DNA from: Martelella mediterranea
GTDB lineage: Bacteria; Pseudomonadota; Alphaproteobacteria; Rhizobiales; Rhizobiaceae
Length of the DNA stretch: 36,479 nt
Assembly: GCF_004342225.1 (NCBI RefSeq)
Contig: NZ_SMAR01000037.1
Location: forward strand, 1 to 36,479
Reading direction: 5' to 3'
In this document: piece after piece, positions 35,514-36,333 of the stretch
Layout of the letters: every line of letters begins with the position of its first letter
Position numbering within the stretch: the stretch's first letter is position 1
Position numbers and translations under genes: made by a program
Notes under the pieces: generated by a model
The model's database searches: none
What the model was told of the DNA's origin: nothing
The model's input: only the letters and a program-made list of their open reading frames with translations

Positions 35514-35770
35514 CAGAAGAGGTAGTGTTGTAATGTCTGGATCGCGCCGGTTTTTGGCCAGTGATGGTTCTGTTCGTGAAGGGGTAATGTCGCCCGGTTC
35601 AGTACCAGCCTTTTTGGTATTTCAGAACCACGCGGGCTGTGAGTTCCGCGGTTTCCGCTATTCGGCTTGTCTGGAATCGCAATGGTCGGGGCTTCAGTAT
35701 CAGTTTTTCTGGGGAGCATGTTCTTCAATGGCCGCAAGGGCGGTATAGGCATTAAGTTCCATCCCCCTAA
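35514..35770. other. Non-coding stretch past the sugar operon, probable mobile DNA flank
   Basis: No convincing gene. Short open frames occur on both strands with no family I recognise. On the minus strand a 20-codon frame (35762 to 35700, MELNAYTALAAIEEHAPQKN) begins right after the intron's 3' domain and looks protein-like, so it could be a piece of the exon that the intron invaded. Confidence 0.3.
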
Positions 35771-35804
35771 GAACCGGACGTGCGAGTCACCTCGCATCCG
35801 GATC
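35771..35804 (-). ncRNA. Group II intron domain V
   Basis: The 34 nt read on the minus strand as GATCCGGATGCGAG, GTGA, CTCGCACGTCCGGTTC. This matches the length and form of group II domain V: a lower stem, the two-nucleotide bulge in CGCACGT, and a GNRA tetraloop (GTGA) on a 4-bp stem. The conserved catalytic AGC near the 5' side reads ATC here, giving a T-T mismatch, so the ribozyme is probably dead. It lies 10 nt after the remnant protein's stop, the normal position. Confidence 0.8.
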
Positions 35805-35814
35805 AAGCCATTCT

Positions 35815-36333
35815 TCAGCACCAGAGTGTGGCACCGAACAACTTGACTGAGTGTTTCGCAATTCGACAATGGGCGAAGTGAGCGGTCCATGCTAGTGTGG
35901 TGAATTTGAAATTCGCCTCATTATTGCAGCAACCTCGATTGCGAATTCCAAATTCGAAAACCACACTAGAAACATAAACTTGCTAGTCACCCTCGTTGAA
36001 TCTGACGCTCGTTCAGAGCAAGCGGAACAATGAGACGAACTTCAGATTCGGGTGACTAGATCAAAAGGATTCGCCGCTCCCCGGATCTTGACGTGCCTCG
36101 CTGTCGGGATCGTCATTGCGCGGAAGAGCCGACGGCCACTGATGTTGGCATCTGCTGAACTCTTCATCGCAAAATCCCAGGACCGCCTTGTCCATCGTGA
36201 CGTGCTCCAGAAGCCATGGATGGCTGAAGTCTAAACAATCTCTGATGTCACCTTCCAGAAACCACTTTGGCGAAGCTCGCTTGGCCAGAGTGATGAAGCA
36301 CTGTAAGCGGTGTTTTCGCCCCACATTGCTCAC
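35815..36333 (-). pseudogene. Group II intron reverse transcriptase/maturase remnant, interrupted
   Basis: Two conserved pieces are visible on the minus strand. The first (about 36318-36175) has RASPKWFLEGDIRDC followed by SHPWLLEHVTMDKAVL, the early reverse transcriptase motif. The second (about 36167-36057, another frame) has TARHVKIRGAANPFD, the conserved end of the maturase part. The YADD-bearing core between them is missing, so there is an internal deletion of several hundred residues. The maturase piece is cut by a palindromic insertion at 35892-36059 and, once this is removed, continues as LAWTAHF to a stop at 35817-35815. Confidence 0.8.
35892..36059. mobile_element. 168-bp paired-palindrome insertion (MITE-like), CTAG-bounded
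   Basis: Two palindromic units. Unit 1 (35892-35969) pairs 35892-35916 with 35941-35969; unit 2 (35983-36059) pairs 35983-36005 with 36042-36059. Both start and end with CTAG. The outer ends are inverted copies of each other (GAATTTGAAATTCGCCTCATT against GAATCTGAAGTTCGTCTCATT, given here as about 20-nt segments), but the terminal stems differ with both strands changed (GTGTGGT/ACCACAC versus GTCACCC/GGGTGAC). Removing the element plus one CTAG restores the maturase frame ANPFD-LAW. The target duplication is CTAG, or TA within it. No coding capacity, so it is non-autonomous. Confidence 0.75.

Follow-up and report, generated by a model that had tools for sequence, protein, structure and literature searches.

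A CTAG-bounded palindromic doublet in Martelella mediterranea is probably a non-autonomous transposable element with an IS630-type end

Introduction

Many bacterial palindromic repeats have neither a known mover nor a known reason for their shape. Among those described from alphaproteobacteria, the CcrM-associated intergenic repeats (CIR) of Caulobacter, Brucella and other members of the class are portrayed in a 2007 review as two long inverted-repeat arms with a linker, bearing GANTC and TA at their termini, and the same account calls their mobility unresolved (PMC2229807). The palindromic repeat Bru-RS1 is described as a target of IS711 at YTAR (PMC3163539, PMC10800456), and IS630 is reported to insert at TA with duplication of the target (PMC2170065).

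Here we describe a palindromic doublet from Martelella mediterranea, for which a probable type of mover can be named. It lies in a window of 36,479 nucleotides (the whole stretch of DNA analysed, positions 1 to 36,479 of contig NZ_SMAR01000037.1, assembly GCF_004342225.1). Its architecture gives testable rules concerning the outer ends, the offset at the inner ends and an IHF-like linker.

Results

The element occupies positions 35892-36059 of the window (plus strand in the orientation of model R1, unit 1 first). Its 168 bp begin and end with C-TA-G, at 35892-35895 and 36056-36059, with 160 bp in between. The plan comprises a 78-bp palindrome (unit 1, 35892-35969), a 13-bp linker, AAACATAAACTTG (35970-35982), and a 77-bp palindrome (unit 2, 35983-36059), all on the plus strand; each palindrome carries CTAG at both ends and forms a covarying hairpin. 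A preliminary description, made from the sequence, had recognised the CTAG-bounded element and halves of 78 and 77 bp, and we confirm its sequence and coordinates and the halves as CTAG-to-CTAG palindromes; its two-unit description also stands, but left the linker between the units unnamed.

In the predicted fold, the outer arm of unit 1 (35892-35916, plus strand; pairs 1-25) constitutes the left terminal repeat, and the inner arms each carry a bulge, GAAA in unit 1 (4 nt, 35956-35959, plus strand) and TCGTT in unit 2 (5 nt in the window copy, 35993-35997, plus strand). Read on the minus strand, the right terminal 34 nt (36026-36059), which comprise the outer arm of unit 2 and beyond, resemble the right ends of IS630 transposons. 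The TA dinucleotides at 35893-35894 and 36057-36058 are the putative left and right copies of a target duplication, by analogy with site L352, where a TA duplication could be read. Folded as RNA, the element strand forms two hairpins at -59.9 kcal/mol (z -6.7; equalled by 0 of 200 shuffles), and as DNA it reaches z -6.4 against shuffles. Rfam yields no match at gathering score inside the element; the sole match in the window, RF00029, lies outside it.

That match, on the minus strand at 35734-35806, scores 40.1 bits (cut-off 40) and marks the group II intron which the element interrupts. Translated separately, the element's flanks give ...ANPFD and WTAHF..., and their frames would fit together across a single CTAG. 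The preliminary description had proposed that removal of the element with one CTAG rejoins the maturase frame, and the frames of the flanks agree with this, but the insertion is not the sole lesion of that frame, since two more in-frame stops, independent of the insertion, lie upstream at 36231-36233 and 36330-36332 (minus strand). Six relatives of the intron were compared, one of which (L367) did not align through the site; the 168 bp are absent from all five that are readable there, and the outcome that would have refuted the preliminary description, relatives carrying the element as part of the intron, thus did not arise. The copy in M. amorphae (L346, on a Mesorhizobium plasmid) reads ANPFDPAWSTYF uninterrupted, with no insert. 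The 4 bp at the insertion point are CCGG in L346 and L347, CTGG in L366 and L368, and TGGG in L369.

The element is multi-copy, both in its own genome and in related ones, contrary to the single-copy outcome that would also have refuted the preliminary description. The M. mediterranea genome has 32 blast places, a figure that includes partial matches, matches to the second strand of the palindrome and matches to the linker only; nine copies, the window's included, span at least 160 nt at 84-100% identity. A second family contributes to the same genome 11 copies that span most of the element, with other stem sequences and the same linker, one base longer in some copies. Blast of 101 genomes (own and relatives) found matches in 14. 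With a covariance model built on 32 copies (alignment A1), the architecture was detected at E <= 0.001 in 80 of 397 genomes and 35 of 142 genera of the order, and in 20 of 385 genomes of a class sample; at E <= 1e-4, a phylum sample gave 16 of 398 genomes, all 16 from the same class (own genome counted throughout). Among 21 named genomes, a subset of 80 loci from a protein search with a neighbouring oxidoreductase that was itself uninformative about the element, six have a match: Brucella pituitosa, Ochrobactrum chromiisoli, Ochrobactrum sp. CM-21-5, Nitratireductor aquimarinus, Ensifer sp. LC11 and Bradyrhizobium sp. Ec3.3. Nine Roseibium/Labrenzia plasmids carry the element, and no empty site was found in Roseibium plasmids: the 9 of 59 records that cover most of the query are all filled, and in the other Roseibium plasmid records listed the match is limited to the gene adjoining the element. 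The phage records searched gave no match. Other orders contain compact, short-looped doublets of 118-133 bp (L400-L407, from G530, G806 and G798); their size is near that of CIR and their linkers are IHF-like, with 0-2 mismatches. As copies of the element are related to one another, counts taken over them are not independent.

For five filled sites, relatives were examined (30 loci read from a genus search over 14 genomes). At two sites, unfilled relatives carry a single CTAG (one genome and two genomes, respectively), so that the empty CTAG sites anticipated by the preliminary description do exist at other copies. At a third (L352), CTAT in the empty state faces C-TA...TA-T in the filled one, and this identifies TA as the duplicated sequence; the other two could not be read cleanly. 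At two further loci, which count against a TA target, relatives carry CCGG where the filled copy has CTAG. One of these, filled in G009, G010 and G011, reads CCGG in the close relative G002 (L302), whose left flank is 98% identical to that of G011 and whose right flank is about 85% identical; the CCGG site of G002 is possibly a recombination breakpoint or an excision scar. At the same locus, a more distant relative has CTAG after the aligned left flank, its right flank being unaligned at the site.

CTAG is present at both ends in 86 of 127 element sites. On 92 of 203 CTAG-bearing element sides the TAG is in frame with an open stretch of 60 codons or more, compared with 119 of 425 control CTAG (p 3e-5 with kinship of the copies ignored), while the other two frames show no difference. 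Tenzen and Ohtsubo are said to have reported in 1991 a preference of IS630 for the TA in CTAG. Other repeats adjoin some of the doublets. On the right flank of L349, a repeat starting CTAGGTCGTGGACTCATAATTG abuts the doublet at CTAG; it matches about two dozen places in G205, occurs in other genomes of that genus as well, and may be another CTAG-targeting family. A short repeat of the M. mediterranea genome, AGCGCCGTGCATCC...GGATGCAC..., adjoins the doublets L090, L091, L102, L104 and L105, and in L105 it lies inside the doublet, at the inner CTAG of unit 2.

The right end of the element matches the right ends of four IS630 transposons in 33/34 (L135), 33/34 (L151), 34/34 (L175) and 29/34 nt (L172), a level of agreement which 10,000 shuffles do not approach (at most 21/34). 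The first two (L135, L151) lie on plasmids of Rhizobium jaguaris and Agrobacterium vitis, the other two in G001 and G002, genomes of the host genus; the R. jaguaris transposase is classified as IS630 (NCBIfam) and DDE_3 (Pfam), and the other three are its relatives. The preliminary description had guessed at a full-length element with the same ends, of IS630 or IS5 type; full-length IS630 transposons do share the right end, which favours the IS630 type. At the left end, the first 34 nt agree with IS630 right ends in 25/34 positions, the first bases after CTAGT being different, and with the IS630 left end of L135 in 19/34. The right end of the second family agrees with two other IS630 right ends in 25/34 and 27/34. 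When the boundaries of IS630 copies were placed by flank divergence (26 copies in four multi-copy sets), the left one was CTAG in 26/26 and the right one exactly CTAG in 23/26, the other three, all of one set, running one base past; L321, an IS630 copy with recognisable ends, has no CTAG there.

Transposases of the partner subgroup are scarce among the hosts. The M. mediterranea genome has none at E <= 1e-60. Of 39 genomes that bear the element, no more than 9 show any match at E <= 1e-20, several of these matches being fragmentary or broken. This scarcity would mean that movement lies in the past, that other IS630s are responsible, or that the genes are missing from draft assemblies. The IS630 copies of the host on C1, C14, C83 and C31 are not the obvious partners, their ends being different from those of the element. 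At the contig ends C14 and C83, the host IS630 genes are followed by CTAG with a different end sequence, CTAGAGCATCGGGCG..., and CTAGGCTCAGGACC... occurs near the host IS630 gene on C31.

The stems of the element have diverged in step. Across the 32 copies of A1, 244 cells are changed on both sides of the stem, compared with 81 in shuffles, and these changes fall in 26 of 49 stem pairs. The share of cells that pair is 97.1%, where shuffles reach 83.4% and slid structures 22.8-43.9%, and covariation scores 0.418 compared with 0.164. In the same copies no excess over the shuffles is seen for further pair types (45 against 49.7). The compensatory changes that the preliminary description had read from one copy are thus real across the 32 aligned copies.

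A larger set of 97 copies, each represented by one strand, provides 94 distinct sequences of each unit; it omits L205, from the same place as L160, and L286, identical in sequence to L228. Their lengths range from 158 to 170 bp. In 81/94 unit-1 and 76/94 unit-2 sequences the inner arm is 4 nt longer than the outer; three of 94 unit-2 sequences have 5 extra nt, and the extra bases are absent in 4/94 and 1/94, respectively. They sit after nt 10 in 82 unit-1 and 63 unit-2 sequences, and after nt 9 in 6 and 24. When the arm cores are typed by hand-chosen motifs, the two units of a copy agree: 39 are A/A, 51 B/B, none mixed and 7 unassigned (n=97), as expected if all arms are recognised by one transposase. 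In L131 (G028:C3), a B-type unit attached through its own linker to a doublet of another type makes a row of three units.

The linker was scored against WATCAANNNNTTR, which we take to be the IHF consensus. In the 97-row set, 84 linkers are 13 nt long (59 distinct, including the few on which the likeness was first noticed), and they deviate from it by a mean of 1.68 mismatches over 9 specified positions, compared with 5.4 for permuted columns (0/5000). An offset scan places the best score at the linker start and the second best on the opposite strand, shifted by 3 (mean 2.12 mismatches). Outside the order, where the linker was placed by stem pairing, 29 copies (26 distinct) give a mean of 2.19 mismatches against 5.39 (1/20,000); they represent 29 of 30 sources, L298 being omitted as from the same place as L416. 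Automatic extraction outside the order, with its mixed strands and mis-picked linkers, gives 3.68 mismatches (2/5000 permutations). The linkers fit the consensus as a family, and that of the window itself has 2 mismatches. That the plan and the linker stay similar although the hairpins differ in sequence points to a function of the linker, and from the linker sequence we infer a putative IHF site through which IHF would act on the element.

Discussion

These comparisons, all of them made at the level of sequence, indicate that the doublet is probably a non-autonomous transposable element (MITE) moved in trans by IS630-type transposases. It is repeated, its 168 bp are too short for a transposase and its TA target is duplicated (3/5 sites); the preliminary description had left the choice at a MITE or a paired palindromic repeat, which the multiple copies, the empty sites and the IS630 right end support. 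In the mechanism that we propose, the transposase would bind the outer arms and cut both outer ends, and the excised element would be pasted into another CTAG with duplication of TA. The inner arms would be kept matched to the outer ones, except for about 4 additional bases that set their terminal CTAGNNNNNN apart from the binding core. This offset may separate the cutting site from the binding core and so leave the inner ends uncut, in which case the two units would travel together; IHF, bound to the 13-bp linker, could bend the DNA and so bring the units together. An element that inserts at a C-TAG stop codon would do little harm, as it starts with G after TA and would thereby restore the stop.

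It is plausible that the element is none other than the described CIR (and perhaps Bru-RS), with only the mover, the target and the linker being new; this is a question of naming and not of mechanism. The plan is shared, in that CIR are described with two arms, a linker and TA at the termini (PMC2229807). GANTC is also frequent here, with 161 occurrences in 96 distinct elements where letter shuffles predict 61, and 28 of the 96 have a site beginning at nt 24 of unit 1, where the stem gives way to the loop. Against this, the review gives CIR about 110 bp, compared with 158-170 bp for the 97 copies here, and its description lists no TIR for them (PMC2229807); moreover, the GANTC sites of the window lie in the unit-2 stem only, and GANTC is found in both arms of unit 2 in 61/96 elements. 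We infer a possible identity from this comparison, which was made through the description of CIR.

The symmetry of the arms might instead be of mutational origin. Template switching in palindromes would copy arm onto arm and thus generate covariation without selection, a process that is compatible with IS630 mobility. The arms of the 97-copy set are indeed 98% and 96% complementary, with no strand bias. Such copying would, however, tend to erase the difference of 4 nt between inner and outer arms, which persists in most copies and across subfamilies, and we consider this origin unlikely.

It is more improbable still that the doublet is a structured RNA, such as a regulator, a terminator or an mRNA stabiliser, that has spread as a repeat and whose stems are kept by folding of the transcript. 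The strong fold and the covariation agree with it, as does the overrepresentation of copies at stop codons, immediately after open frames. Selection on RNA should, however, favour G.U over A.C mismatches, and on the plus strand of the 97 copies the two are equal (45 each). This equality suggests that the property kept is the symmetry of the DNA rather than RNA pairing; of the 'selection for folding' put forward in the preliminary description, the compensatory pairing stands and selection at the RNA level does not. The element has no Rfam match, and the terminal repeats shared with IS630 explain its symmetry without recourse to RNA. That a Y1/HUH transposase (RAYT) moves it as a REP/REPIN (BIME-like) repeat is hardly credible: an inverted pair of palindromes with a spacer, a bulge in each hairpin and a tetranucleotide at the foot resembles REPINs, but the right end is that of IS630, the CTAG sites are found empty and, above all, the TA target is duplicated; HUH elements are not known to make a target duplication.

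If the doublet is an IS630-driven MITE, it could conceivably represent something broader, although we hold this extension to be doubtful: a class-wide superfamily of four-armed, IHF-folded non-autonomous transposons, to which CIR and perhaps Bru-RS would belong. The plan of outer arm, 4-bp-offset inner arm, 13-bp IHF site, offset inner arm and outer arm would be kept, and the arms would adapt to different IS630 transposases through coordinated changes on the two strands, with GANTC in the arms tying movement to CcrM methylation and the cell cycle. Were CIR to belong here, their mobility would receive an explanation, and transposition would be coupled to the cell cycle through CcrM sites within transposon ends.

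In the open-licence literature, searched at the level of titles and the openings of abstracts, we found no IS630/CTAG doublet of such a kind in alphaproteobacteria, nor any report that brings together a doublet, an inner offset, an IHF-like linker and an IS630 end. The IS630 transposons L135 and L151 share the right end of the element and have CTAG at both ends, but they are full-length elements, the transposase of L135 measuring 365 aa, whereas the doublet has no room for a transposase gene. RUP of Streptococcus pneumoniae, described as moved by IS630 and associated with IS630-Spn1, is likewise a short repeat with IS630-like ends inserted at TA, but it measures 107 bp and the accounts consulted describe it without a doublet or a linker motif (PMC2229807, PMC3049150). 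The Correia/NEMIS repeats of Neisseria are, like the element, a MITE with TA termini, and their 155-bp form has an IHF site that binds IHF in vitro; as outlined in the same review, their stem is formed from the two ends, with no arms and linker, and they belong to a different host group (PMC2229807). Bru-RS1 and Bru-RS2 of Brucella are also described as related palindromic repeats, but of 103 and 106 bp (PMC3163539, PMC10800456), and their host genus carries the present element as well, in Brucella pituitosa. As described, CIR have GANTC at a terminal loop of one arm or partly within it (PMC2229807); here it lies mostly in the stem of unit 2 and, in 28 of the 96 elements, at the loop border of unit 1. 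Compared with that description, the IS630 right end and the IHF-like linker are the element's own.
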